The translations under genes and the position numbers were made by a program. Under the pieces are notes generated by a model that had not been told where the DNA came from, searched no databases, and was given only the letters and a program-made list of their open reading frames with translations. From the NCBI GenBank assembly GCA_003247225.1, contig QKAK01000212.1, forward strand, positions 1-34,493: a stretch of DNA of 34,493 bases, read 5' to 3'. This document shows, piece by piece, positions 6,942 to 31,161 of the stretch (its first letter is position 1; every line of letters begins with the position of its first letter). This stretch comes from Spirochaetota bacterium. GTDB lineage: Bacteria; Spirochaetota; Spirochaetia; Treponematales; UBA12059.

Positions 6942-9182
6942 TCATCCTTTCGACTGTCCCGATACGATCCTCGCCTCGACCGCACAGGCGGCCAGGAAGA
7001 ACCTGAAGCCGCGGTGAGCCGCCAGCTCGTCGTCGAGGCAGGCTTCCTCCAGTACCGTGGCCGCGCCTTCGTCCAGGAAGCCGGAGCCGGCGATGGCCCT
7101 GGCGACGACCTCGCCGCGCTCCCCGAGGCCGACGAAGGCGCGGATCGAAGAGGAGAAATCGTCCCGCGCCGGGCCGCCCGTCGCGGCCGCGCCGTCGAGC
7201 TGCTCGAGCAGCGCCGACACGGCGCCGTCGGGGCCCTGCTCGAAGTCGTAGTAGAGCCGGTAGAAGCCGCTCAGGCCGCCGAGTATGCCCGACAGCGCCA
7301 GCACGATCTCGTCGAACGCGTAGGGCGGCGGCTCCCGGCGCTTGAGCACGGAGACGAGGGCCGGTACCGACGAGACCCGGCCGAACGCCTCGATGGCGGA
7401 GGCCGCGCTGACCATCAGGCGCGGGTTGTCGGTCTCGCAGGCGAGCGCCTCGATGGCCGGCAGGCTCTCCTCGTCGCGGAGCGCCGCGAGGGCCGTGACC
7501 GCGGCGCCGCGCAGCATGTAGTCGTCGGTCCCGAGCGCCGAGCGCAGGGCGGGCAGGGCCTCGACGCAGCGGCGCCTGCCGAGGACGCGGGCGGCGATAT
7601 AGGCGGTCGTGTACGGGTGGCGCTCCACCTCGCGTATCATCGCCCGGAGCGCCTTGGGCGACAGCCTGGCCAGGTTCTCCATGGCCAGGAGCGCCTCGAC
7701 GCGCACGTCGAGCCTCGGGCTGGAAAGGTAGGCCAGCAGCTCGCGCTCGGCCACCGAGGTGCCGTACGCGCCGATCTCCCGGATGATGCGGATCTCGTCG
7801 GCCGGCGAGCCGGTTCGCTCTAGCCGCTCGAGGAGGCCGATCGCCTTGAGGTCGCGCATCGAGAACAGCACGCCGAGCGACTCGCGCACCGACGCCGAGT
7901 CCGGGGCGCTTAAGGAACGGGCGCCGATCGCCGACAGCCCGGTGACGGCGAGCAGGATCGCGAACAGGAAGCGGTACGACGAGACCGTGTCGAGTCCCGC
8001 GGCGCTCGCCGCGTCGAGGAAGACGCCGCCCACGGTCGACCCGAGCGCGCCGCCCACGCCGAAGATCACGTAGTAGACGACGCCGAGGTCGAGCATGTGG
8101 CTCGGCTTGACGATGGAGAAGAAGTAGGTCTGGCCGGCGTTCTCCTGTCCCGCCACGCCGGCGCCGACTATGAAGTTGATCAGGGCCAGGTAGGCCGCGG
8201 CGCGCAGGGCGTCGGGCGTCGCGGGGCTCCAGGCTACCGGCGCCATCGCCAGGGCCATCGCGACGGCGAAGAGCACGTACAGCGGCTTCGCGCCGAGCCG
8301 GTCCATGAGCTTGCGCGACAGGTAGCCAACCGCGACGCTGCCGAGGTTGAAGGCGACCGAGTAGGCCATGACGAGGGCCGGGCTCTGGCCGTAGAGCACG
8401 CTGGCGTGGGTGACGACGAAGGTGCGGGCGGTGCCTCCGGCGAACGATAGCGGCGCGAATACCGCCACGAAGCGCCTGAGCCGCTGGTCCGCCCAGGCCT
8501 CGCGCACGGTGGCCGCGAACGACGATCCCGGTTCCGGCCTGTAGGCCTCCGGCTCCGGCAGCGACAGGAGCAGCGACGAGGCGACGGAGCCGGAGGCCAC
8601 GCCGAGCGCCAGGATGCCGGCGTACAGCGGGCTGCCCGACCAGAGCGCGAGCGCCAGCATGGTCAGCGCGCTCGTGGCTATGGCCGACAGGCCGTTCGTG
8701 ATCTGGACGCTCGACAGGAAGGCTCCCCGGTCCCTATCGCCGGCCATCAGGCCGAGCACCGGGTTGTTGCCGATCAGGCCGACGCCCCTGAAGATATTGA
8801 AGACCAGGCTGCCCGCCAGCAGCAGGGCGAGGCCCAACGACGGATAGCCGGCCATCGCCACGAACGGCGCGGCTACGGCCGGCGCCATGCCCCAGTATCG
8901 CAGCATCCACGACCAGCCGAACACCCTGATGATCGGCCTGCCGCGTATCGCTCGCCTGCCGAGCGGCATGAAGAAGTACGTGATGAAGTTGAGCGAGCCG
9001 AGCAGGCCTATATAGGTGCCGGACGCGCCGAGGTCCAGGGCGAACAGCGTCGGTATGCTGCCCGAGAGCAGCATGAACGAGAACGAGTTGAGCACGTTGA
9101 AGGCCAGGAAGCGCGAGCGGTAGCGCTCGATCCTGGTCCTTCTCCTGCGTCGCGACGAAGGGGCCGCGGGCTTGTTTCCCAT
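6942..9182 (-). CDS. MFS transporter fused to C-terminal HEAT-like repeats
   Basis: Starts MGNKPAAPSSRRRRRTRIERYRSRFLAFNVLNSF. About 12 hydrophobic helices, then an alpha-helical repeat region ('RLDVRVEALLAMENLARL', 'DDYMLRGAAVTALAALRDEESLPAIEALA'). Stop lies 4 bp before the proC ATG (operon). Confidence 0.85.
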   Translation of the reverse strand: MGNKPAAPSSRRRRRTRIERYRSRFLAFNVLNSFSFMLLSGSIPTLFALDLGASGTYIGLLGSLNFITYFFMPLGRRAIRGRPIIRVFGWSWMLRYWGMAPAVAAPFVAMAGYPSLGLALLLAGSLVFNIFRGVGLIGNNPVLGLMAGDRDRGAFLSSVQITNGLSAIATSALTMLALALWSGSPLYAGILALGVASGSVASSLLLSLPEPEAYRPEPGSSFAATVREAWADQRLRRFVAVFAPLSFAGGTARTFVVTHASVLYGQSPALVMAYSVAFNLGSVAVGYLSRKLMDRLGAKPLYVLFAVAMALAMAPVAWSPATPDALRAAAYLALINFIVGAGVAGQENAGQTYFFSIVKPSHMLDLGVVYYVIFGVGGALGSTVGGVFLDAASAAGLDTVSSYRFLFAILLAVTGLSAIGARSLSAPDSASVRESLGVLFSMRDLKAIGLLERLERTGSPADEIRIIREIGAYGTSVAERELLAYLSSPRLDVRVEALLAMENLARLSPKALRAMIREVERHPYTTAYIAARVLGRRRCVEALPALRSALGTDDYMLRGAAVTALAALRDEESLPAIEALACETDNPRLMVSAASAIEAFGRVSSVPALVSVLKRREPPPYAFDEIVLALSGILGGLSGFYRLYYDFEQGPDGAVSALLEQLDGAAATGGPARDDFSSSIRAFVGLGERGEVVARAIAGSGFLDEGAATVLEEACLDDELAAHRGFRFFLAACAVEARIVSGQSKG

Positions 9183-9188
9183 GGATAG

Positions 9189-9194
9189 AGTATA
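9189..9194 (-). promoter_or_regulatory. Putative -10 box (TATACT) 6 bp before the MFS-HEAT ATG
   Basis: Minus strand ...GCTCTATACTCTATCCATGGGAAAC... Confidence 0.5.
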
Positions 9195-9214
9195 GAGCGT
9201 CGCGAGCGTATAGG

Positions 9215-10576
9215 CTATCGCCCCGCCGCCTCGGGGCCCGTCCGCACCACGGCCTTCCGCTTCCAGCGGCCGCCCAGGTAGTACCAGGTCGAGAACGCCG
9301 CGCCCATCAGCCAGCCGGCCGGCACGCTCCACCAGATGCCGTCCGAGCCCATGCCGAGCGGGCCGGAGAATAGCACCGCGCAGGGGATACGCACTACCCA
9401 GAGCGCGAGCACCGTGTTGATCATCGGTATGAACGCGTCGCCGGCGCCGCGCATCACGCCGTTGTTGATGAACATCGTCGAGAACAGCAGGTAGGTCGCG
9501 CCGACTATGGCCAGGTAGCGGGCGCCTATGGCCATCACCTCGGCGTCTCGGGTGAACATGCCCATCAGGCCGCGCCCGAACAGGATGACCGCGACGCCCA
9601 CGGCCACGGAGATCGCGGCGCCGACCAGGATGGCCGACAGGTGGCCGCGCTTGACCCGGTCGGTCTTGCCGGCGCCCATGTTCTGGCCGGTGAAGGTGGA
9701 TACGGCCTGGCTCAGGTTCATCGCCGGCATCGACGCGAAGGTGTCCAGCCTGGAGGCCGCGGCGAAGGCGGCTATCGTCGCGGTGCCCTGGCCGTTGACC
9801 AGCCTGGTCAGCGCCATCATGCCGAGCGCCACCATCGTCTGCTGGATGCCGGTAGGCAGGCCGATGCGCATGCTGTGCTTGAATACGTCGCGGTCGAAGC
9901 GCAGGCCTCGCAGGTTCAGGCTGACCAGGGGATTCCTCTTGGCCACGTAGGCGAGGCCGCCTAGGAACGACGCGCCCTGCGAGATGATCGTCGCCCAGGC
10001 CACGCCGGCGACGCCCCAGCCGAAGGCCACCACGAACAGCAGGTCGAGCGCTATGTTGAGCAGGCTGGCGCCGACGAGCAGGTACAGCGGCGTCTTGGAG
10101 TCGCCGAGGCCTCGCAGGACCGCGGAGATGCCGTTGTAGCCGAAGGTGGCGAGCATGCCGCCGAAGATGATCCGGAGGTATGCCGCGGCCTCGTCGAATA
10201 CGTCGGCCGGCACCTTGAGGACGGTCAGGATGGCGTTCGTCGATAGCACGCCTATGATAGACATGGCCAGGCCCGACCAGAACATGATGATGTAGCCGGT
10301 GTCGACGGCGGCGCGGACCTTGGCGCGGTCCTTCGCGCCGAAGTACTGGGACACGAGGACCATCGTCCCCATCGTCAGCCCCATCACCAGCGATATCATC
10401 AGGAAGATCACCGGGAACGAGGTTCCGACCGCGGCGAGCGCGGTCGTACCGACGAAGTTGCCGACCACGATGCTGTCGACCATGTTATAGAACTGCTGGA
10501 AAACGTTGCCGATAAGCATCGGTAGGGCGAACGCGATGATGGTCCGCGTCTCGCCGCCCTGGGTCAGGTCTTTCAT
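9215..10576 (-). CDS. MATE family efflux transporter
   Basis: Trimmed to MKDLTQGGETRTIIAFALPMLIGNVFQQFYNMVDSIVVGNFVGTTALAAVGTSFPVIFL. Typical MATE/NorM N-half; SD GGCGAGG upstream. Confidence 0.92.
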   Translation of the reverse strand: MKDLTQGGETRTIIAFALPMLIGNVFQQFYNMVDSIVVGNFVGTTALAAVGTSFPVIFLMISLVMGLTMGTMVLVSQYFGAKDRAKVRAAVDTGYIIMFWSGLAMSIIGVLSTNAILTVLKVPADVFDEAAAYLRIIFGGMLATFGYNGISAVLRGLGDSKTPLYLLVGASLLNIALDLLFVVAFGWGVAGVAWATIISQGASFLGGLAYVAKRNPLVSLNLRGLRFDRDVFKHSMRIGLPTGIQQTMVALGMMALTRLVNGQGTATIAAFAAASRLDTFASMPAMNLSQAVSTFTGQNMGAGKTDRVKRGHLSAILVGAAISVAVGVAVILFGRGLMGMFTRDAEVMAIGARYLAIVGATYLLFSTMFINNGVMRGAGDAFIPMINTVLALWVVRIPCAVLFSGPLGMGSDGIWWSVPAGWLMGAAFSTWYYLGGRWKRKAVVRTGPEAAGR

Positions 10577-11515: not shown

Positions 11516-12427
11516 TCAGGCGAAGTACGAGACGCGGTAGTCCCGCACGTAGGCGAAGCCCATGGCCAGGTAGAGCGAGCGGGCTACGGCGTTCGCCTTC
11601 TTCACGAACAGCGAGGCCGCGCGGCCTTCCGACAGGATGGAGGCTACTAGCGCCTCCATGACGAGCCTGCCCAGCCCGAGCCCGCGCTGCGCCGGCTCCA
11701 CGAAGACCCCGCCTATCTGGTCGGTCGCGATGCCCCGGGCGTTGGTCTGGGCTCGCGCTACCGGCCTGCCCCCGACGGTCGCGATATAGACGATCTGGCT
11801 CGACAGGCTCCGGGCCTGGGCGGCGCGGCAGGCCCCGGGATCGAAGGCGTGCAGCTCGGTCATCACCTCGGCCTTCTCGTAGGCGGCGGCTATCGGGTAG
11901 AGGGCGTCCAGGTCCTCCGGGCCGGCGCGCCTGACCTCGGCCAGGCCGGACGAGAAGCGCGCGTCGGGAGGCCGGCGGCCGGCGGCTAGCCGGGCGTCGG
12001 GCGGCAGCCGCATCGCGTCGTACTCGACCTCGAGCGCCGGCCTCCAGCCCAGGGCCGCCTCGAGGGCCGCCACGTGGTCGGACGCCCCGACGCAGGCCGA
12101 CGGGCGGTAGGCCCGTACCGCTCGCGAGCGGCCGAGCCCGCGGAGCGCCTCCGCCGCGTCGCTCCCGCCTGCTTCGAAGCGCCCTCCGAGCACCGGGAAG
12201 GCCGATCCTCCTGCCGGCAGCAGCACCGCCATCGACGGCCGTCCGCCCCGGCTAGGCTCGGGCAGTATGAAGAGGCCGCCCCGCTCGGTGCGGACGCGCG
12301 TCAGGTCGCCGGAGGCGGAGAAGGCCTTGTGCGAGAATCCCGTGGCGTAGCCCTCGCGCGGCTCGAGGAAGTCGCGGAGGGCGGGCGCGTCGCCGTCGGC
12401 GGCCCTCCGCCAGCCTTCGGGGCTCAG
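11516..12427 (-). CDS. GNAT-family N-acetyltransferase, apparently initiated at CTG (12427)
   Basis: C-terminal GNAT motif 'IGGVFVEPAQRGLGLGRLVMEALV...FVKKANAVARSLYLAMGFAYVRDYRVSYFA'. The open frame continues upstream of ATG 12232 through 'LSPEGWRRAADGDAPALRDFLEPREGYATGFSHKAFSASGDLTRVRTERGGLFILPEPSRGGRPS'. Confidence 0.75.
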   Translation of the reverse strand: MSPEGWRRAADGDAPALRDFLEPREGYATGFSHKAFSASGDLTRVRTERGGLFILPEPSRGGRPSMAVLLPAGGSAFPVLGGRFEAGGSDAAEALRGLGRSRAVRAYRPSACVGASDHVAALEAALGWRPALEVEYDAMRLPPDARLAAGRRPPDARFSSGLAEVRRAGPEDLDALYPIAAAYEKAEVMTELHAFDPGACRAAQARSLSSQIVYIATVGGRPVARAQTNARGIATDQIGGVFVEPAQRGLGLGRLVMEALVASILSEGRAASLFVKKANAVARSLYLAMGFAYVRDYRVSYFA

Positions 12428-14220
12428 GAGCCGGCCTCTATCGGCAGTCGCCCGATAGCCTCGACGTCGCCGGCCAGCACCGCGAAGGCCGCCTTGAACG
12501 ACTCGCGAGCGTAGGAGTAGACCGCGACGATCGTGGCGTCGTCCTTGAATTCCATCGCGTACGCCGGGTTGAGCGACGAGACGACGTAGAGCCGCTTGCC
12601 GGCCTTTCGGGCCGCCCGCGCGAACGCCGCGCCCTCGGGGTTTGCCACGCAGACGACGACCGCGTCGGCCGCGGGGAGCCGCGCCTTGAACGACGCCAGC
12701 TCCGCGGCCAGCTCGTCGGCGCTCGGCTGGTACGAGAACCTGTAGATCGTCGCCCGGGGCACTCTGGCCGCCGCCTCGGCCGCGAAATCGCCGAAGGGGC
12801 CGGCGACCAGCACCCGGCCCGTCTCCGGCAGGGGCAGCTCGGCGCGGCCGAGGACCGTCGCGCTGCGCACCGCCTGCTCGGCGAAGAACTCTCGCGACTC
12901 GTCGCTGCGCATCGCGGCTTCCGGGTCGGCGTCGGGCCTGACCCCGTCGCGGCCGAGCGGCAGTAGCCAGCGCAGCTTGGCGCGGAGCACGCGCCTAGCC
13001 GACTCGTCGACCCTCGACCTGAACGACGGGTCGCTCCGGTACAGCCTGGCCAGGCGCGCCCAGGCCGCGTCGTCGAGCGAGAGCGTCCGGCTGAACATGA
13101 GTATGTCGTTGCCGGCGCGGATCGCCAGCTCGCAGGTCTCCGATAGGCCGCCGGAGCTGGCCGCCCCGCTCATCATCAGGTCGTCGGTGATCACCAGGCC
13201 GTCGTAGCCCATCCTGTCGCGCAGCAGCTCCTGGATGAAGTGGCGGGACAGCGAGGCCGGCTCGTTCGATCCGGAGATCCTCGGGAAGGCCAGGTGCCCG
13301 CTCATCACGCCGGGCACGCCCTCGGCCGCCAGCATGCGGTACGGCACCAGCTCGCGGTTCCAGAGCGTCTCCTCGTCGATGTCGATGACCGGCAGGATGC
13401 CGTGGGAGTCGAGCTCGGTGTCGCCGTGGCCGGGATAGTGCTTGGCGGTCGCCAGCACCCCGGCGTCGGCCATGCCCCGCGCCCAGGCGGCGGCCAGGAT
13501 GCCGGTCTCGGTAGGGTCGGACGAGAAGGCGCGCGGGCCGATGATGGTCGATTCGGGGCGCGTGGCCAGGTCGACCGTCGGCGCGAAATTCATCGTGACG
13601 CCGAGCGCCGACAGCTCGACGCCTATGTAGTAGGCGCTGCGGTAGGCGTCGCTCGGCCAGCCCGAGGCGCCTATCGCCATGTTGCCCGGCGTCACGCTGG
13701 TCGAGCCGCGCACGTGCCTGATCCAGCCGCCCTCCTGGTCGGTGGCGACGAACGGCGGCACGTCGAGCGGGCCGTTCTCGGCGGCCTTCTGGATGTCCTC
13801 GATGGCGTCGGCGAGCTTGCCCGTGTCGTCGGCGTTCCAGCCGAAGATCTTGACGCCGCCGAGCCCTCGCCGGCGTATCCACGAGTACAGGAGCGGCGTC
13901 GGCTCCTCGCCGCCGTAGGACAGCATGAACAGCTGGCCGAGGCGCTCGTCCGGTCCCATCCGGGCCAGGAGCGCGTCCAGGGCCGCCTCCTCGTCGACGC
14001 CGGCGAGCGACCAGAACGACGACGCGTCGACCGGGACGGCCGGCTCCTCGGCCAGCAGCGCCTCGGCCGATACGGCGGCGCGCGCCGCCTCGGCGTCGAC
14101 CCGCTCGTTGCGGGTCAGCGAGTACGAGAAGGGGATGGCCGCGCCGACCGCCGCGACGACGGCCAGGGCCGCGATGCCGAGGCGCCAGGCTCTAGCGTAA
14201 CGGGTCGGTTCGGTGGCCAT
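12424..14220 (-). CDS. Glycoside hydrolase family 3, beta-N-acetylhexosaminidase (NagZ-like), membrane-anchored or exported
   Basis: 'FVATDQEGGWIRHVRG', 'NFAPTVDLA', catalytic loop 'AKHYPGHGDTELDSHGILPVID', 'GVMSGHLAFPRI', 'GLVITDDLMMSGA'. N-terminal TM helix. Confidence 0.92.
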   Translation of the reverse strand: MATEPTRYARAWRLGIAALAVVAAVGAAIPFSYSLTRNERVDAEAARAAVSAEALLAEEPAVPVDASSFWSLAGVDEEAALDALLARMGPDERLGQLFMLSYGGEEPTPLLYSWIRRRGLGGVKIFGWNADDTGKLADAIEDIQKAAENGPLDVPPFVATDQEGGWIRHVRGSTSVTPGNMAIGASGWPSDAYRSAYYIGVELSALGVTMNFAPTVDLATRPESTIIGPRAFSSDPTETGILAAAWARGMADAGVLATAKHYPGHGDTELDSHGILPVIDIDEETLWNRELVPYRMLAAEGVPGVMSGHLAFPRISGSNEPASLSRHFIQELLRDRMGYDGLVITDDLMMSGAASSGGLSETCELAIRAGNDILMFSRTLSLDDAAWARLARLYRSDPSFRSRVDESARRVLRAKLRWLLPLGRDGVRPDADPEAAMRSDESREFFAEQAVRSATVLGRAELPLPETGRVLVAGPFGDFAAEAAARVPRATIYRFSYQPSADELAAELASFKARLPAADAVVVCVANPEGAAFARAARKAGKRLYVVSSLNPAYAMEFKDDATIVAVYSYARESFKAAFAVLAGDVEAIGRLPIEAGS

Positions 14221-18199: not shown

Positions 18200-21100
18200 T
18201 CAGAATAGACCGATACGGGCGCCGAAGGCGATGTTCGGGCGGATGAATTCCTCCAGCCGCGTCGAAGCCTCCGACGGTATGAACACCAGCCCGCCCTCGA
18301 AATAGAGCCCGACCGACTTGAGGACGCGGCTGTCGAAGGCGAATTTAGCGAATTCCCACTGCCCGACCACGCCGGACAGCACCATGTAGCGATCGTCCGG
18401 CGGCGAGAATATCTGGCCGATCGCGTCGCGCATGCTGAAGTAGGTGAAGCTCGCGCCGAGCGTGAACGACATCGAGAAGAAGTCCCAGTCGGGGCCGAAC
18501 CAGTACGAGAACGGCAGGTAGGCCACGTTGGCCAGCAGCCTGGCGCCGAGCACGTAGCCGCCGAAGCGCGACAGCTCCGACGCGGGCGTATCGTCCGTCG
18601 CGAAGCCGAGCAGGTTGGTCCACGACGGCTGGGCGTCGAAGCCCCGGCCGAGCTCCACCTGGAGGCGCACGTTGTCCTCGAAGAACGACAGCCCGAGGCC
18701 CGCCTCGAAGCGGGTCGCGCCGAGCAGGTGCAGGTCGGCGTAGGAGCCCTGGATGAAGCCGGGGATCTCGTACTTCGACTTGTCGCCCGATCTCAGGAGC
18801 ACCGATACCTCCGATAGGCCGTTCGCGTCGGAGGCGACGCCCTCGACCGATACGACCCCGTTGTAGCGGCCGTTCTCGGCCGGCTTCAGGATCTCGATGG
18901 CCGGCGGCCTCGTGTCGAGCACGACCATGCGCTTGCGGACGGCGCTGTCGCCGCCCGAGAAGGTGGCCCTGACCGTCAGCCTGAGGACGCCGTCCGGGTA
19001 CTCCTGGGTCTCGAGCCTGTACTTGAAGGCGGCGGCGCCCGAGGCGTCCTGCCAGGTCTTGCCGTTGTCGCGGCTGATCTCGACCCGTACCGGCTTGCGG
19101 CCGGCCGCGAGCTTCTTGTACGCGGCCTGCGCTTCCTTGTCCGCCGATTCGGGCGCCGGGGTGTCCCAGCCGGCCGAGCCGACCAGGTACGGCCGGCCTA
19201 TCACGAAGTCGCCCGTGGCTAGGGAGTCGATGTCGACCCAGGGGCCGTCCAGGCGGTACTCTATCTCCCGCGGCTCGGAGGCGAACGCCGTTCCGGACGG
19301 CGATACGGCCTCGACCCTGAAGGAGCGCCGGCCGTCGGCCACGGAGCCGGGCTCCACGGCCAGGCTGAACCAGCCTCCGGCGCCGAGCTCGACGGTCGCG
19401 AAGGGCTGGCCGTCGAGGGTGATAGCCGCGCGCTCGATGCGCTCGGCGGAGACGACCCGGCCGTCTATCGTGAAGCGACCGGCTACCGGCTCCCCGTGGG
19501 CCGGGAACGCGAGCTCGGCGTAGTCGGCCTTCCTCGACTCGAGCACGACGACGTTCCTCGAGTCGTAGGCCTCGTTGCCGGCCATGTCGACGGCCCGCGC
19601 CTGTATGTTGTACCAGCCCGGGGCCAGGGCGCCGAGGTCCACGTCCTCCCTGAATACGCCGCTGGCCGACGACTCCACTACCAGCTCGGGATCGTCCGAG
19701 CCGAGCCTGGTGACGATAAGGCTGAGGCCCTTGAGCGCGATGCCGTCCTCGACGCGGCCGCCCACGGTGATCGAGCCGATAGCCTCCTCGCCGTCGGCCG
19801 GCGTGTCTATCGACACGGTCGGCGCGCTGTTGTCCACCGATAGGAGGCCGGCGGCCAGGCCCGGCGTGCCGTAGCCGTCCGTCAGCCTCAGGTACACGGC
19901 GTGCACGCCGTCGGGCACTATCCTCGTGTCGAGCGAATAGCTCCACTCGGTCGTCCCGACGGCGGCGTCGTAGGTGGAGCCGTTGTCGAACGACAGGCGC
20001 ACCGACTCGATGCCGTTGGCGTCGGAGGCGACGCCCGACAGCGTTATGACGCCGCGGTTCGTCACCTCGACGGCCGGCGCGTCGAGCCTGCCTACCGGCT
20101 CCTCGCGGCTCACCCTGAAGCCGAGCGATACCGTCTCGCCCGCGACCTCGTTCAGGTCGACGGCGTAGGCCTCGAAGCGGTGCTCGTTATCGGCCAGGTC
20201 GAGCAGCCTGAACGGCACCGCGAAGCCGTTCGACACTTCCAGCGGCGTCCAGTCGGAGCCGTCGAGGCGCCAGAAGACCTTCGAGACGCCGTCGTCGTCG
20301 AAGGCCATGCCGGAGACGGTGAAGTCCGAGCGCATGACCTCGTTCTCGGCCGGTATCTGGATCTGCACGGTCGGCTTGTCCGCCTCGATGTCGACGGCGA
20401 AGGCCGGCCCCTCGGGATCGAGCGGGCGGATCGTCGTGACGTTGCCCGACGCGTCGGTAGCGCGGAGCGCCATGGCCAGGCCTCCCTCCGGCAGGGAGCC
20501 CAGGTCGACGAGGCGGCTGAACGATAGCCCGCGCGTATCGGCCGGCCCGGCCTCGGCGCCGCGGGCCGCGCCGCGCGCCGCGCCTTCGAGCGCCTCCCAC
20601 GCGACGCCGTCGGGGCTGTACTCTACGCCGACGATCGGCGAAGCGTCCTCGGCGTAGCCCGATAGCAGCACGGTGCCGTTGACGGTGTCCACGGCGCGCG
20701 GCGTCTCGAAGGATAGGGCCGGAGCGGCGGTATCGCGGGATACGGCGGTCAGCGCGTAGCTCGCTGCCCCCGACCCGTCGACCGCTCGCACGAGCAGTCC
20801 GACCGGTCCGTCGTCCGCCTCCGGCGACAGCTCGGCCGAGTACGCCGGGCCGTCTCCCGGCTCGATCGGCGTCCAGCTCAGGCCGCCGTCGGCCGACCAG
20901 GCCAGCTCGGCCAGGCCGTTCGCGTCGGAGGCCTCGCCGGCCAGCCGCCACGAGCCGGTCGTCGGCGCGCCGGAGGCAGGCTCGGCTATGGTCAGCGCCG
21001 GCGGGCCCGAGTCGACGACCAGGCGCAGCGGAGAGGAGCGGAAGCTCTCGCCGTCGACCGTCCTGACGACCAGCGTCACCGGCTCGGCCCCGACGCCGCC

Positions 21101-24100
21101 GTCGGCCAGGCCGGTCAGGCGCAGGGCCCGGCCGTCGAAGGTCGCCTCCGCGTACTCGACCGGCGGCTCTATGGCCAGCTCGGCGACAGGCCTGCCGTAC
21201 CATAGCGAGCCTATCGCGGTACCCGGCGCGACGACGGCCGCGCCGTCGGCGACGCGCTCGTCGTACAGGTAGACGCCCTCCGCGGCCGTCGACTCGAGGC
21301 CGCGGTCCGGGGCGACGCGATAGAACGACGCGGTAGCCTCGGCCGCCTGGCCGAAGGCGTCCGTTACCCTGAGGCGTACCAGGTTACGCTCGTACGCCAG
21401 GCCGGCCGGCAGAGGCAGCCTGAGCTCGTACGAGCCGTCGGCGCCCGGCTTCGGGGCGGCCAGCGACGACCAAGCGCCGCCGTTCAAGGCCCACTCGGCC
21501 TTGGCCAGCCCGTTCGGGGCCTCGGCCGACGCGACGATGACCGTCTTGCCGTCCGAGACCAGGGCCGAGCCGGACCGGAACGCGGCCGGTTCGGGCGCCG
21601 GGCCGGCCGAGGCCGGCGTCATGACCGAGGTAAAGGATAGTCGAGGCGCGGCTCCGCGCTGGACGAAGGATACGGGAACAGGAGCGGACGAGACTCCGGT
21701 CGCGTCGGCGGCGCGCGCCATGGCCGACCGCTTGCCGAGCCTCGGCTCCCCGAGGTCGATAGCGTAGAGTGGCCCGGCTCCGCTAGCCTCGACGGCTACG
21801 CCGTCGACGGTCAGCGTCGCCCCGGCCAGAGCGTCGTCGTCGGACGCGTAGACGAAGGCGAGCGCCGGTCCGTCCGCGAGGACGTCGCCGTCGGCCGGCG
21901 CCAGGAAGCGCGCCTTCGGGGCGTCCGCCTCGGCGTCGTAGGCCACCGCGAGCGTCGACTGCGACCGGTTACCCGAGCCGTCGACCGCGATGACCCGTAT
22001 CGTCACGGAGCCCGCCTTGGGCGGGAACGAGAATCGCCGGGCCGCGTCTCCCGAGCCGGGCGCGAGCTCGAAGCCGCCCGACTCGTCGCCGGCGACGTAC
22101 GACAGCGCGGCGACCCCTGCCGCGTCGGAGGCCCTGACGACCAGCGTGAAGGCGCCCGGCGAGGAGGCCTTGCCGTCGGCCGCGGCCGGCGCCAGTATCT
22201 CGATCGCCGGCGGGGTCGAGTCGTACTCGAGGGCCGCCCTGGCGTAGGCTAGCTCGCCGGAGGCCTCGGTGACGGCGACCCATACGTCGCTCCGGCCGTC
22301 GGGACGAGGCGCCAGCTTGACGGCCGCCGTCCATTGGTCCGGCGCGGCGCCCTTCTTGAGGGCGAGCGGCTGCGTCAGCTCCCCGGGACCGTAGCCCCAG
22401 AAGGCCACGGGCTTCTTCGGATCGGGCGTGACGCCCGAAAGGCTTATCGACAGCGACGCCGCGCCCGAGGCGCGGATCGGGGAGGCCGCGTAGTCGGGGA
22501 AGGCCGCCTCGTCCGGCTCACGGACCACGGGAGCGGTGAACGACAAGGCTCCGGTCGCGTCGGATCCGGCGAATACCGCGACCGGGCCGGACAGGTCGGC
22601 CGGCAGGGCGGCCGCGTTCGTCTTGACGGCCTCGAGCGGCGCCGGCGCGGCGGCCGGGGCTTCGGCCGGCTCGAGTCCGTCGGCCGGGTCCAGCTCGGTC
22701 GAGTTGCCGGCGCGGTCGGTCAGCCTGAGCCGTAGGCCCGCCGCGGGATCGGCCGTGAAGGTTATCAGCGCGGCCGGTTCGAGGGGCTCGTAGCCGCCGC
22801 CGGAGTCCAGCTCCACGCGCTCGAGCGACTGGAGCCCCTCGCCGGCCTCGAACGCGAACAGGGTCGGTCCGGCGGGCCGGTCGCCCGGCCTGGGCAGGAG
22901 CCTGACCGGCGCAGGCGCCGTCGAATCGGCCATGAAGGCGGTGGATACCGTAGCGGCGTTGCCCGACGGGTCGATAGCGCGCAGGTCGAGGCGTACCGGG
23001 CCGGAACGGCCCGCTAGGTCGATCTCGCCGGAATACGATCCCCCCTTCGCGCCGTCGGCCGCGAGCGGAGTCCATTCGCCGCCGTCGATCGCGTACTCGA
23101 GCGAGGCGACCCCGTCGCCGTCGCTCGCCTCGGCGCGCACGGTAACGCGGCCGCGCAGCCACGAGCCGAAGGCCGGCTCGACGACGGCTACGGCCGGCGG
23201 AGCGTCGTCGGTCTCGAACGTGAACGGGCCTTCGGAGAAGACGTGGCCCCGCTCGGTCTCGACGATCACCGCGGTGGGAGCCGTCCGGCCGTCCGCGACG
23301 CGCTCGACGCGCACGAACGTGCCGTCGATCGACGCGCGGAGGAGGCCGGTCTCGGGCTCGAGCCTGACCGAGCGCGGGGCCTCGCCGTCGAACGGCGTGA
23401 CGAAGGCCCCGACGAGGGGCGCGCCGTCGCGCAGGGTCACCGTCGGAACGTCGGCGGAGGCCCGGAGCGGCGAGCCGGACGGCGCCGCGGACGGCGCGGC
23501 CTCGAGCCCGAAGTCCAGGAGCGGACCTACCCGCGCCCTCGAGTAGTCTGTCGCCAGGACCGGGGCCCTAGCGGCGCCGCGCTTGCCGAACGAGTCGACG
23601 GCCTCGACGCGCAGGTCGAGCACGCCGTAGGGCAGCGACGGGGACAGGGGCAACGAGAAGCTCGCGCCGTCAGCCGTCTTGGAGAACGGCAGCTTCATCG
23701 GCGCGCCGCCGTTTATCGCGTATGACAGCTCGACGAGCGGGTTCGCCGCCCGTACCGAGCCTTGTAGCGAGGCCTTGCCGTCTATCGTCGATACCGCGAC
23801 GCCCGGCGCGAAGTCGATCGAGCCTGTCGCGTCGCTCGCGCGCTCGATAGCCACCGAGGGCGCCGCGCCTGAGTATACGAAGGGCAGCCTGAGCCAGGGG
23901 CCGGCCAGCCCGTTGGAGTCGACGGCCCGCAGCGACAGCTCGCGCCGGCCGCTCGGCACCGCGCCGAGCTCGAGCGAGAACGCCCCGGCGCTCGGTATGA
24001 GCGTCTCCGGGCCGCCGTCGAGGCTCCAGGCCACCGACGCGACGCCGTCGTCGTCCCTGGCCATGCCTACGACGCGCACGGTTCCCTCTAACGTCGATTC

Positions 24101-25252
24101 AGGCGCCGGATAGGCCAGGGCGACGGTCGGAAGGTCGGCCGCCGGGTCCACGCGGCGGGTCACGCCGACGACGGCCTGGTTCCCGGCGACGTCGGTCGCC
24201 GTCAGCTTGACGGTCATCGGGCCGGACTTGGCTGGCGCGGTGAACGGAATCGAGAAATACGGGTTGCCGGGCACGAGCTCCGCCTCGCCGGTTTCCTTAC
24301 CGTAGGCCCATGACAGGCTCCGGAGTCCCACCGTGTCGTAGACCCGGCCCCTCAGCTCGAAGCGGCCGTTGACCGCCTCGCCGTCGGCCGGCGACAGCGC
24401 GACCAGCTCCGGCGCGGTATTGTCGACGAAGTACAGGAAAACGGCGACGCCCTCGGATCCGACCGCGTCTACGCTCTTGAGCCACAGCACCGCGGGCCCG
24501 TCGTCGAGCTTCCTCGTGTCGACGGCGAGCGAGAAGGAAGCCGTCCTGGTCTTCTTGTCGTACGAATGGCGGAGCGGCTGCCAGGTCTCGCCCGAGTCGC
24601 CCGAGTAGGATATCGACGATAGGCCGTTGGCGTCGTAGACCGTACCGGTCACCGTCAGCCGCCCCGAGGCTATCGCGCCGAAGGCCGGCTTGGAGACCTC
24701 GTGGAGCGGCTTGGTACGGTCCAGGTGGAAGGAGACCGAGCTTTCGCCGCCGACCAGGCCGTTGGAGTCGACGCCGCGGGCCGAGATCGTGTGGAGGCCG
24801 TCGGCGACGCCCGCGGTAGGCAGGTAATACGACCAGTAGTCGGAGCCGACGGCGCGTACCCACTCGCCGTCGTCGAGCCGGAGCTCGACGTGGCCGACGG
24901 CGTCGTCGTCCACGCAGGTGCCGACGATGTTCAGGTCGGCGCCGACCCGGGAAAAGGGTAGCGGGTTGACTATACCGGCGATGGGCAGGTCCGAGGCCGG
25001 GTCGACGATAAGGTCGAACGGAATGGCGAACGTGACGTTGCCGGCCGCGTCTACGGCCCTGGCGAGCAGGTTGTACGAGCCTGGCTTCAGCCCCGATACG
25101 TCGTATTCGGTGGTCCAGTTCTCGAGCCCGTCGGCGCTCTGGTAGTCCGTCCCCGGCTTTCCGGCCGGCTCGCCGCCATCCTGCGCGATGGCCGGCGCGG
25201 AGAGCGTGCAGGCGAACAGCGCGACGAGTATGCGATATGCCCTCTTACCCAT
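18200..25252 (-). CDS. Giant (2350 aa) exported protein: long array of bacterial Ig-like modules with a C-terminal outer-membrane beta-barrel-like region
   Basis: Signal peptide 'MGKRAYRILVALFACTLSAPAIAQ'. Many repeats of 'D(D/A)(N/D)G(L/V)..(L/V).(W/Y)S.DGG..W..L'. C-terminal ~190 aa rich in amphipathic strands, ending 'NIAFGARIGLF' (terminal Phe). Confidence 0.85.
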   Translation of the reverse strand: MGKRAYRILVALFACTLSAPAIAQDGGEPAGKPGTDYQSADGLENWTTEYDVSGLKPGSYNLLARAVDAAGNVTFAIPFDLIVDPASDLPIAGIVNPLPFSRVGADLNIVGTCVDDDAVGHVELRLDDGEWVRAVGSDYWSYYLPTAGVADGLHTISARGVDSNGLVGGESSVSFHLDRTKPLHEVSKPAFGAIASGRLTVTGTVYDANGLSSISYSGDSGETWQPLRHSYDKKTRTASFSLAVDTRKLDDGPAVLWLKSVDAVGSEGVAVFLYFVDNTAPELVALSPADGEAVNGRFELRGRVYDTVGLRSLSWAYGKETGEAELVPGNPYFSIPFTAPAKSGPMTVKLTATDVAGNQAVVGVTRRVDPAADLPTVALAYPAPESTLEGTVRVVGMARDDDGVASVAWSLDGGPETLIPSAGAFSLELGAVPSGRRELSLRAVDSNGLAGPWLRLPFVYSGAAPSVAIERASDATGSIDFAPGVAVSTIDGKASLQGSVRAANPLVELSYAINGGAPMKLPFSKTADGASFSLPLSPSLPYGVLDLRVEAVDSFGKRGAARAPVLATDYSRARVGPLLDFGLEAAPSAAPSGSPLRASADVPTVTLRDGAPLVGAFVTPFDGEAPRSVRLEPETGLLRASIDGTFVRVERVADGRTAPTAVIVETERGHVFSEGPFTFETDDAPPAVAVVEPAFGSWLRGRVTVRAEASDGDGVASLEYAIDGGEWTPLAADGAKGGSYSGEIDLAGRSGPVRLDLRAIDPSGNAATVSTAFMADSTAPAPVRLLPRPGDRPAGPTLFAFEAGEGLQSLERVELDSGGGYEPLEPAALITFTADPAAGLRLRLTDRAGNSTELDPADGLEPAEAPAAAPAPLEAVKTNAAALPADLSGPVAVFAGSDATGALSFTAPVVREPDEAAFPDYAASPIRASGAASLSISLSGVTPDPKKPVAFWGYGPGELTQPLALKKGAAPDQWTAAVKLAPRPDGRSDVWVAVTEASGELAYARAALEYDSTPPAIEILAPAAADGKASSPGAFTLVVRASDAAGVAALSYVAGDESGGFELAPGSGDAARRFSFPPKAGSVTIRVIAVDGSGNRSQSTLAVAYDAEADAPKARFLAPADGDVLADGPALAFVYASDDDALAGATLTVDGVAVEASGAGPLYAIDLGEPRLGKRSAMARAADATGVSSAPVPVSFVQRGAAPRLSFTSVMTPASAGPAPEPAAFRSGSALVSDGKTVIVASAEAPNGLAKAEWALNGGAWSSLAAPKPGADGSYELRLPLPAGLAYERNLVRLRVTDAFGQAAEATASFYRVAPDRGLESTAAEGVYLYDERVADGAAVVAPGTAIGSLWYGRPVAELAIEPPVEYAEATFDGRALRLTGLADGGVGAEPVTLVVRTVDGESFRSSPLRLVVDSGPPALTIAEPASGAPTTGSWRLAGEASDANGLAELAWSADGGLSWTPIEPGDGPAYSAELSPEADDGPVGLLVRAVDGSGAASYALTAVSRDTAAPALSFETPRAVDTVNGTVLLSGYAEDASPIVGVEYSPDGVAWEALEGAARGAARGAEAGPADTRGLSFSRLVDLGSLPEGGLAMALRATDASGNVTTIRPLDPEGPAFAVDIEADKPTVQIQIPAENEVMRSDFTVSGMAFDDDGVSKVFWRLDGSDWTPLEVSNGFAVPFRLLDLADNEHRFEAYAVDLNEVAGETVSLGFRVSREEPVGRLDAPAVEVTNRGVITLSGVASDANGIESVRLSFDNGSTYDAAVGTTEWSYSLDTRIVPDGVHAVYLRLTDGYGTPGLAAGLLSVDNSAPTVSIDTPADGEEAIGSITVGGRVEDGIALKGLSLIVTRLGSDDPELVVESSASGVFREDVDLGALAPGWYNIQARAVDMAGNEAYDSRNVVVLESRKADYAELAFPAHGEPVAGRFTIDGRVVSAERIERAAITLDGQPFATVELGAGGWFSLAVEPGSVADGRRSFRVEAVSPSGTAFASEPREIEYRLDGPWVDIDSLATGDFVIGRPYLVGSAGWDTPAPESADKEAQAAYKKLAAGRKPVRVEISRDNGKTWQDASGAAAFKYRLETQEYPDGVLRLTVRATFSGGDSAVRKRMVVLDTRPPAIEILKPAENGRYNGVVSVEGVASDANGLSEVSVLLRSGDKSKYEIPGFIQGSYADLHLLGATRFEAGLGLSFFEDNVRLQVELGRGFDAQPSWTNLLGFATDDTPASELSRFGGYVLGARLLANVAYLPFSYWFGPDWDFFSMSFTLGASFTYFSMRDAIGQIFSPPDDRYMVLSGVVGQWEFAKFAFDSRVLKSVGLYFEGGLVFIPSEASTRLEEFIRPNIAFGARIGLF

Positions 25253-28120: not shown

Positions 28121-30559
28121 ATGACAGCGCCCGACGACATATTCCGCGCCTCGTTCACCCAGGCCAGGCAGGCGATGATCGTGCTCGACGAGCGGGGCAT
28201 CCCGGCCGTCTGGAACGCCGCGTTCGAGGAGCTGTTCACCGAGCTGGCCGGCTTCGTGCCCGAGCGGCTGGCGGTGCCGCTGTTCGACTGGCTCGAGGAG
28301 CGGGAATCCTTCGGCTTCTCCTATTACGTGACCGAGGTGCTGCACGGCCGGATGGGCAAGGCCGTCGTCGAGGCCGGCGCGCGGACCGCCACCGGCCGCC
28401 GCCTCTGGCTGCGTACCACGCTGTCGCCGCTCCGTATCGACGGCGACGCGCGCGGGCCCGGCCCCATCGACCCGGCTCTCGGCGAGCGCTGGATATGGTG
28501 CTCGTTCCAGGACGTCACCGAGCAGAAGCTCAAGGAGCGCGAGCTGGTCTCGGCCAAGGAGGAGGCCGAGAAGGCCACCCAGACCAAGAGCCAGTTCCTG
28601 GCCAACATGAGCCACGAGATACGCACGCCGATCCAGACCATCCTCGGCATGACCGAGCTGCTCGGCGAGACGGCGCTGGACCGGGAGCAGGCCGACTACG
28701 TGCGCACGGTACGGTTCTCGGCCGACGTGCTGCTCGGCCTGATCAACGACGTGCTCGACTTCTCCAAGATCGAGGCCGGTAAGCTCGATATCGAGGCCGC
28801 CGACTTCGACCTCCGCGCCACGCTCAGGCAGGCCGTCGACCTGATCATCCTGGAGGCGCACACGAAGGGCCTCGAGGTCATAGTCGATATCGACGAGGCG
28901 CTGCCCGAGGTCGTCCACGGCGACCCCGGCCGGCTCAGGCAGATCGTCGTCAACCTCTTCAAGAACGCGGTCAAGTTCACGCATTCGGGCGAGGTGGTGG
29001 TAGCCGCGAGGGGCGCCCCCCGCAAGGGCGGGCCCGCCTCGATGGCGCTGTCGGTGGCCGACAGCGGGACCGGCGTACCGGAAGCCGTCAAGGGCAGGCT
29101 GTTCACGCCGTTCACGCAGGAGAGCGCCGGCTCCAAGACCAGGGGCGGCACGGGGCTCGGGCTCGCCATATCGCGCCACCTGGTCGAGGCGATGGGCGGC
29201 AGGATCTGGCTCGAGCCGAACAAGCCGCGCGGGTCTCGCTTCTGCGTCGAGCTGCCGCTCGGCGAGCCGACCGATTGGCCGCCGCGCCCGCCCAAGCCGC
29301 CGCGGGGCAGGCTCAAGCCGGCGCGCGTGCTCGTCGTCGACGACCACCCGATGGCCCTCGCGCAGGCGATGCGGCTGGCCGTATCGTTCGGGCTCCGGGC
29401 CGACGGCGCGACGTCGGGTGACGAGGCGCTGGCGGCGATGCGGGACGCGGCGGCCGCCAAGAAGCCGTACGCGGTCTGCCTCGTCGACCAGAACATGCCG
29501 GGCATGGACGGCTGGCGGCTCGGCGCCGAGGTTACCGCGGATAGGCAGATAAACGGCTCGCGCCTCGTGCTGCTGGCGCCGGAGGGAGCCATAGGCCCGG
29601 ACGCCAAGATGAAGCTGCTGCAATGGTTCAACGGCTACGCGGTCAAGCCTATCAATCCCGACGAGCTCTACGGCGTGCTCGAGCGCGCGCTGGCGGACGA
29701 GGTGGACCTTCCGTCGGCCGAAGAGGCCGAGCCGGCGGCCGAGGCCGCGCCCGCGGCCGACGCGGCCGCCTCGGATCGGGCGGCGGGCGCCAGCCTGAAC
29801 CTGACCGTGCTGCTCGCCGAGGACCATCCGGTGAACCAGGAGCTGTTCGCGGCGCTGCTGCGCAAGCTCGGCTGCGAGGTGGGGCTGGCCTCGGACGGCG
29901 CCGAGGCGCTGGAGCTGGCCTCGCGCGGCGACTACGACATGGTGCTGATGGACATCTTCATGCCGAGGATGAACGGCTACGAGGCGGCCCGGGCCCTGCG
30001 GGAGCGCGGCTACGCCAAGCCGATCATCGCGGTGACCGCGAGCGCCCTCAAGGGCGAGCGCGACAAGTGCATCGAGGTCGGGATGAACGACGTGCTCGTC
30101 AAGCCGTTCAAGAAGTCCGACCTCGCGGCGACCCTGGGCTTCTGGGCCGAGAAGGCCAGCGAGGCCGAGGCGCCGGTCTACGCCGCGGCGCCGGAATCGG
30201 GCGTCGGCGGCCAGGAAAGCGCCGCGCTCGACTTCGACGGCCTCGTCGAGACCTTCCTCGGCCAGCGCGGCAAGGTGATCGAGCTGCTCTCCCGCTTCTC
30301 TACGAAGACCCGGTCGCAGCTCGCCGACCTCGAGGCGGCGGCCGCCGCCGGCGACGCCAAGACGATGCGCGAGATAGCCCATTCCATAAAGGGCGCCGCC
30401 TGGAGCCTGTCGGCCAGGTCGCTCGGCGACGCGGCGATGATCATCGAGAAGGCGGCCGCCGACGGGGACGCCCAGGCCGCCGGCGCGTCGCTCCGTGAGC
30501 TCGGCGAGCGCTTCGCCGAATTCGAGTCGATAGCCAAGTTCTACTCGGAGCGGTCGTGA
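28121..30559 (+). CDS. Hybrid sensor histidine kinase (PAS-like, HisKA, HATPase_c, REC, REC, Hpt)
   Basis: '[26 protein letters not shown]', '[20 protein letters not shown]', '[19 protein letters not shown]', 'LVVDDHPMA...[12 protein letters not shown]', '[12 protein letters not shown]...[15 protein letters not shown]...VTASA...LVKPF', Hpt '[23 protein letters not shown]'. Confidence 0.93.
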
Positions 30560-31161
30560 ACGGGAGAGCGGGGCAGGGCGACCTGTTCGGGCCGCCCGAC
30601 CTGTCGTCCTACCGGGTCGTCTGCGGCATCGACGAGGCGGGGCGAGGCCCGCTGGCCGGGCCCGTGTCGGCGGCGGCGGTGATCCTGCCCGACGGATTCC
30701 CGCTGCGCCTGCTCGACGACTCGAAGGCCCTGTCGGCCAAGGCCCGCGACGAGGCGTACGCCGTGATAGTCGAACGGGCCCGCTGGGCCAACGAGTGGGC
30801 CTGGCCCGCGGAGATCGACGAGCTGAACATACTCGGGGCGACGATGCTGGCGATGCGGCGGGCCTTCGCCCGGCTCGGCGAGACGCCCGACCTGGTCGTC
30901 GTCGACGGCAACCGGGACCCCGGCCTGCCATGCGCGTGCAGGCCGATGGTCAAGGCCGACGCTATCGTGCCGGCCGTTATGGCGGCGTCTATAGTCGCGA
31001 AGGTCTCGAGGGACCGGCTGATGGAGCGCTACGATTGGCTGTACCCGGAATACGGCTACGCGCGCCACAAGGGCTACCCGACGGCCGCGCACCGGGCCGC
31101 GTGCCGCGCCCTGGGGCCGTCCCCGGTGCAGAGGATGAGCTTCGACTATTCGAGGGAATGA
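30556..31161 (+). CDS. rnhB: Ribonuclease HII
   Basis: '[25 protein letters not shown]', '[12 protein letters not shown]', 'PDLVVVDGN', '[21 protein letters not shown]', '[20 protein letters not shown]'. GTG start overlaps the upstream TGA (GTGA). Confidence 0.95.

Follow-up and report, generated by a model that had tools for sequence, protein, structure and literature searches.

A GNAT acetyltransferase gene with a probable CTG start codon at a conserved GH3-GNAT gene overlap in a genus of Spirochaetota

Comparison of orthologous loci indicates that a GNAT acetyltransferase gene in a Spirochaetota draft genome is translated from a CTG codon at position 12427, as the second gene of a GH3-GNAT pair with a 4-nt overlap, a reading to which we assign a probability of roughly 0.87. 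The gene lies in a 34,493-nucleotide stretch of DNA (hereafter the window) from a draft assembly of 224 contigs (G000) of an uncultured spirochaete, whose closest named records are MAGs of Spirochaetota. CUG starts occur naturally, if very rarely, and the GNAT gene would constitute a well-supported new case of this known kind. Gene finders limited to ATG, GTG, and TTG truncate such proteins; here, the first 65 amino acids would be lost. The features concerned, all on the minus strand, are as follows.

12425-12427, minus strand: putative GNAT start codon, CTG in the sequence; CTG in four other species of the genus, and ATG or GTG at this overlap in 11 family orthologs
12424-12426, minus strand: TGA stop of the GH3 gene (ORF list), with two bases in common with the CTG; GH3 tail conserved as ...GRLPIEAGS followed by the stop
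12435-12439, minus strand: AGAGG, Shine-Dalgarno (SD)-like, with a 7-nt spacer to the CTG; its GAGG pairs with the anti-SD (dG -5.8)
11516-12427, minus strand: GNAT gene as read from the CTG, 303 aa, putative two-domain acetyltransferase; Pfam Acetyltransf_1/FR47 at residues 208-294, AlphaFold pLDDT 91.6
12233-12427, minus strand: N-terminal 65 codons, lost with a start at ATG 12232; invariant W6, R7, R24, and E25, dN<dS, predicted fold
12424-14220, minus strand: gene for a 598-aa GH3 glycoside hydrolase, the partner upstream of GNAT; PF00933 (1.5e-69), carries KHYPGHGDTELDSH
12230-12232, minus strand: ATG favoured by standard gene callers (ORF list), internal to the proposed gene and inside the predicted strand 63-70

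On the minus strand the GH3/GNAT junction reads CCGATAGAGGCCGGCTCCTGAGCCCCGAAGGCTGG, in which the CTG of GNAT and the TGA of GH3, on the same strand and with two bases in common, form a CTGA tetranucleotide. The GNAT frame runs from CTG 12427-12425 to 11516 (303 codons plus stop), and its first ATG, GTG, or TTG is ATG 12232, at codon index 65. Upstream of the CTG the frame remains open for 189 codons within GH3, and ATG, GTG, and TTG are absent from it all the way from the in-frame stop at codon -190 to 12232. A sequence-only reading of the window had proposed that the frame is open upstream of 12232 without a canonical start as far as the GH3 stop, and that AGAGG and a 7-nt spacer precede a CTG overlapping the GH3 TGA; the sequence and the ORF list confirm the former, and the latter is found on the minus strand as described. 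Within the AGAGG, pairing with the anti-SD involves GAGG only, and the interval 12425-12439 that the reading assigned to the gene start covers only the SD to the CTG. AGAGG is identical in G005 and G007, and weaker or different in G006 and G002. The kinase-to-rnhB junction, which had been offered as a normal GTGA, is one: the GTG of rnhB (30556-31161, plus strand) at 30556 overlaps the stop of the gene at 28121-30559. Since C precedes TGA in four of the seven TGA-ending genes of the G+C-rich window, the CTGA tetranucleotide is uninformative on its own, and the argument must rest on orthologs.

Matches to the 303-aa GNAT protein were found in 51 of the 59 genomes searched, and in 20 of 23 genomes of the family. 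All 16 family genomes with an overlapping GH3-GNAT pair carry a 4-nt NTGA overlap at the homologous place, the start codon being ATG in six (G016, G014, G019, G020, G022, and G012), GTG in five (G001, G011, G017, G021, and G015), and CTG in five (G000, G005, G007, G006, and G002), with no other codon represented; the five CTG genomes all belong to one genus. Three sister-family loci have GTGA (G041) or ATGA (G028 and G025) at the junction, and in G004, G009, and G018 GNAT has an ATG without the 4-nt overlap. G003, of the same genus, yielded no match to GNAT, and its GH3 genes were merely ~34% identical. Whether orthologs carry ATG or GTG where the window has CTG had been put forward as a check; 11 family orthologs do so (ATGA or GTGA), while CTGA is found in four further species of the genus. 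Reading on from the CTG, the first canonical codon in the five species occurs at indices 65, 63, 20, 44, and 10, all past W6-R7, and this scatter leaves no shared alternative start. In G005, where an in-frame stop lies 23 codons upstream, the candidate starts are the CTG and one ATC only. A distant Spirochaetaceae homolog (L033, around 5001) also has CTGA at the junction; because an ATG just precedes its conserved W, the CTG is probably not its start and was not counted.

An alignment of 15 sequences shows W6, R7, R24, and E25 to be invariant and D13 nearly so, all upstream of 12232. The proposal that the upstream 65 residues are a real N-terminus is supported, conservation beginning at W6, well before the position of 12232, where no ortholog starts. 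For the N-terminal 61 codons, comparison of G000 with G005 yields a dS of 0.46 and a dN of 0.158, with 8/7/21 differences at codon positions 1/2/3, which resembles the rest of the gene; dN is below dS in every pair of CTG species, for the N-terminus and the remainder alike. The AlphaFold model computed from the alignment (mean pLDDT of 91.6 over the whole chain) places residues 7-8 in a strand, 11-35 in a helix, and 51-57 and 63-70 in strands, residues 6-65 being built into the opening strand and helix of the N-terminal domain and into its hairpin. According to this model, a protein beginning at M66 would have a disrupted N-terminal domain, lacking strand 1, helix 1, and one of the hairpin strands. 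Profiles PF00583, PF08445, PF13508, and PF13673 match the protein above the gathering score; profile searches returned no match for the N-terminal half, and in a Foldseek search the full-length model matched tandem GNATs, among them VipF and MshD, at a TM of about 0.5.

These observations bear directly on the reading in which GNAT starts at ATG 12232 (238 aa) and high G+C, together with the overlap with GH3, accounts for the open frame upstream. While ATG is a far better start codon, and long spurious open frames are common in the G+C-rich window, such a start would have to be reconciled with the family-wide conservation of an N-terminus that has its own ATG or GTG at the overlap, with dN<dS upstream of 12232, with the loss of the predicted secondary structure elements just named, and with the lack of conservation in the position of the first canonical codon; we consider it very unlikely. 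Little credence is likewise given to a decay of the five CTG genes following loss of a good start. The very low efficiency of CUG in reporters (PMC11497404) would be in keeping with decay, but the frames are intact and free of internal stops in all five species, dN stays below dS in every pair on both sides of 12232, and the residues of the GNAT domain are invariant.

Ribosomes shifting into the -1 frame where GH3 ends would yield a GH3-GNAT fusion comparable to the fungal enzyme RmNag. In favour of this, GNAT lies in the -1 frame relative to GH3, and in the window that frame is uninterrupted over the 189 codons before the CTG; a fused fungal GH3-GNAT enzyme does exist (PMC4680927; PDB 4zm6 match). 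However, an X-XXY-YYZ slippery site is absent from the junction, in-frame stops occur 23 (G005) and 14 (G001) codons upstream, and orthologs have a proper start codon exactly at the overlap, all of which make a frameshift improbable. A sequencing or assembly error hiding an ATG or GTG, for which the fragmented assembly of 224 contigs might speak, is excluded by the occurrence of the same CTGA in five separate species genomes, the other four encoding proteins 58-83% identical to the GNAT of G000 in intact frames, with no indel or hidden ATG or GTG in these close relatives. The comparative tests support a GNAT start at the CTG in NTGA coupling geometry, as had been proposed from the sequence.

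Translation of GNAT from this CTG would most likely proceed by re-initiation, in which (i) a 70S or 30S ribosome that has just terminated at the GH3 UGA would sit over the overlapping CUG, (ii) GAGG with its 7-nt spacer would aid positioning through some pairing with the anti-SD, and (iii) the ribosome would accept fMet-tRNA for re-initiation at CUG, although pairing at the first codon base is a C-U mismatch. Given that the GH3 stop is one base from the start codon, positioning need not depend on codon strength. GNAT output would be expected to be low relative to that of GH3. Strong folding is predicted for the junction RNA (70 nt, -27 to -32 kcal/mol), which counts against CUG initiation; translation of GH3 would open the local fold. 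NTGA is the commonest close arrangement of co-oriented prokaryotic genes (PMC12548453), and coupling at such overlaps is established (PMC12548453, PMC6728339). In reporters, output from CUG is under 1% of that from AUG (PMC11497404); work cited in the same paper describes CUG as the rarest NUG start codon in bacteria, accounting for 0.024% of initiation codons, with 0.86% of AUG efficiency in one reporter. The CUG of Caulobacter dnaA is bound by 30S subunits in vitro (toeprint), yet unused in vivo (PMC8443254). It is conceivable, if doubtful, that the overlap itself relaxes start-codon stringency, ribosomes parked at the UGA accepting CUG well enough for CTGA to persist over genus-level divergence. 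In that case, second genes with a CTG start may have been overlooked as a class and be systematically truncated by gene finders. The CUG of five species, set against the ATG and GTG of their relatives, offers a clean natural test of the tolerance of re-initiating ribosomes, and raises the question of whether these tolerate codons that de novo initiation rejects.

Among known systems, the rep gene of RepFIB plasmid replicons has a bacterial CTG start proven experimentally by N-terminal sequencing and mutation (PMC11983097). GNAT resembles it as a bacterial gene with a probable CTG start, of a kind routinely mis-annotated at a downstream codon, and is likened to it in expression, which the CTG of rep is thought to hold low; fMet-tRNA must be used at the rep CTG, and we infer the same for GNAT, with fMet as the first residue. 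Unlike rep, for which a good SD and not stop/start coupling is discussed, GNAT has a putative start that overlaps an upstream stop, and evidence that is comparative (PMC11983097). The geometry of GH3-GNAT is identical to that of coupled NTGA (-4 nt) pairs and is conserved in 16 of 16 overlapping orthologs; in the CTG species the first base of the overlap is C in place of A, G, or T (PMC12548453, PMC6728339). A text search returned no mention of CUG in PMC12548453, nor of CUG or CTGA in PMC6728339. A study of start-codon evolution counted 4 CTG switches among about 69,000 ancestral starts (PMC5622118). As in those switches, a canonical start appears to have been replaced by CTG at an orthologous position; they were identified in triplets of close genomes, in contrast to the GNAT CTG, which is common to five diverged species.

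In GNAT trees, all CTG genes and the GTG gene of G001 fall into one genus group, with CTG requiring two changes. The CUG would have replaced a GUG or AUG in an ancestor within the genus and been kept in the five species sampled, and these trees are most simply read as a single gain of CTG, with G001 later reverting to GTG. Support within the group is moderate, and G001 branches first in 8% of bootstrap trees, in which case a single gain would suffice. In GH3, the C of the CTG occupies the third position of the final codon (TCC or CCC; TCG in G001), so that a change to GTG would leave the GH3 protein unaltered. That five species retain the C is not itself significant, since in the GH3 tail all five likewise have C at 22 of 216 fourfold sites, and positive selection for CTG is not supported. 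CTG appears to have been long tolerated, and the data do not show a preference for it. SD duplex energies range from -3.8 to -5.8 in CTG species and from -1.5 to -5.7 in ATG species; compensation for CTG by a stronger SD is suggestive only, the CTG species forming one group.

To look for CTG starts elsewhere in the genus, NTGA junctions were surveyed, together with upstream coding potential, in G000 (253 kb, 187 genes) and G007 (772 kb, 541 genes). NTGA starts in use in G007 comprised 33 ATG, 10 GTG, and 4 TTG. In-frame CTGA without a canonical codon upstream occurred 11 times, nine of these having a normal start 1-3 codons on; the other two were a signal-peptide gene (with an SD, and ATG 10 codons on) and the present GNAT. 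No other convincing CTG start was found in this 1.0-Mb survey (728 predicted genes), the power of which is low, as the GNAT of G007 itself scores merely 1.3 because of a GTG 20 codons in. Neither an altered initiator tRNA nor a missing IF3 could be identified: in G007, all three G-C pairs of the anticodon stem (GGG/CCC) are retained by the initiator tRNA (L141), and infC was found in all six genomes searched. On the same grounds, no lineage-wide CTG-start habit is evident, and initiation in the genus is probably not generally unusual. The infC genes themselves (L131-L136) have an apparent TTG start in GGAGGTCCATTGGCGGACAA; the open frame begins a few codons upstream of the TTG in four of the six loci, without ATG or GTG there.

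With regard to function, KHYPGHGDTELDSH in GH3 is presumably the NagZ-type motif known from GH3 enzymes. Further Foldseek matches of GNAT were 5kf1, a glucosamine N-acetyltransferase, and 4zm6, the fungal RmNag in which GH3 and GNAT are fused. Like the fused RmNag (PDB 4zm6, PMC4680927), the pair at 11516-14220 (minus strand) places a GH3 with this motif next to a putatively two-domain GNAT, and GNAT could plausibly be an amino-sugar N-acetyltransferase working with an N-acetylglucosaminidase. Conservation of the overlap in the family and into the sister family suggests an amino-sugar recycling pair. Elsewhere in the window, a 2350-aa open frame at 18200-25252 (minus strand), with the start MGKRAYRILVALFACTLSAPAIAQ, apparently encodes a very large exported protein, and the gene at 6942-9332 (minus strand) joins an MFS transporter to C-terminal HEAT repeats (PF07690 plus PF13646), a combination that looks unusual.
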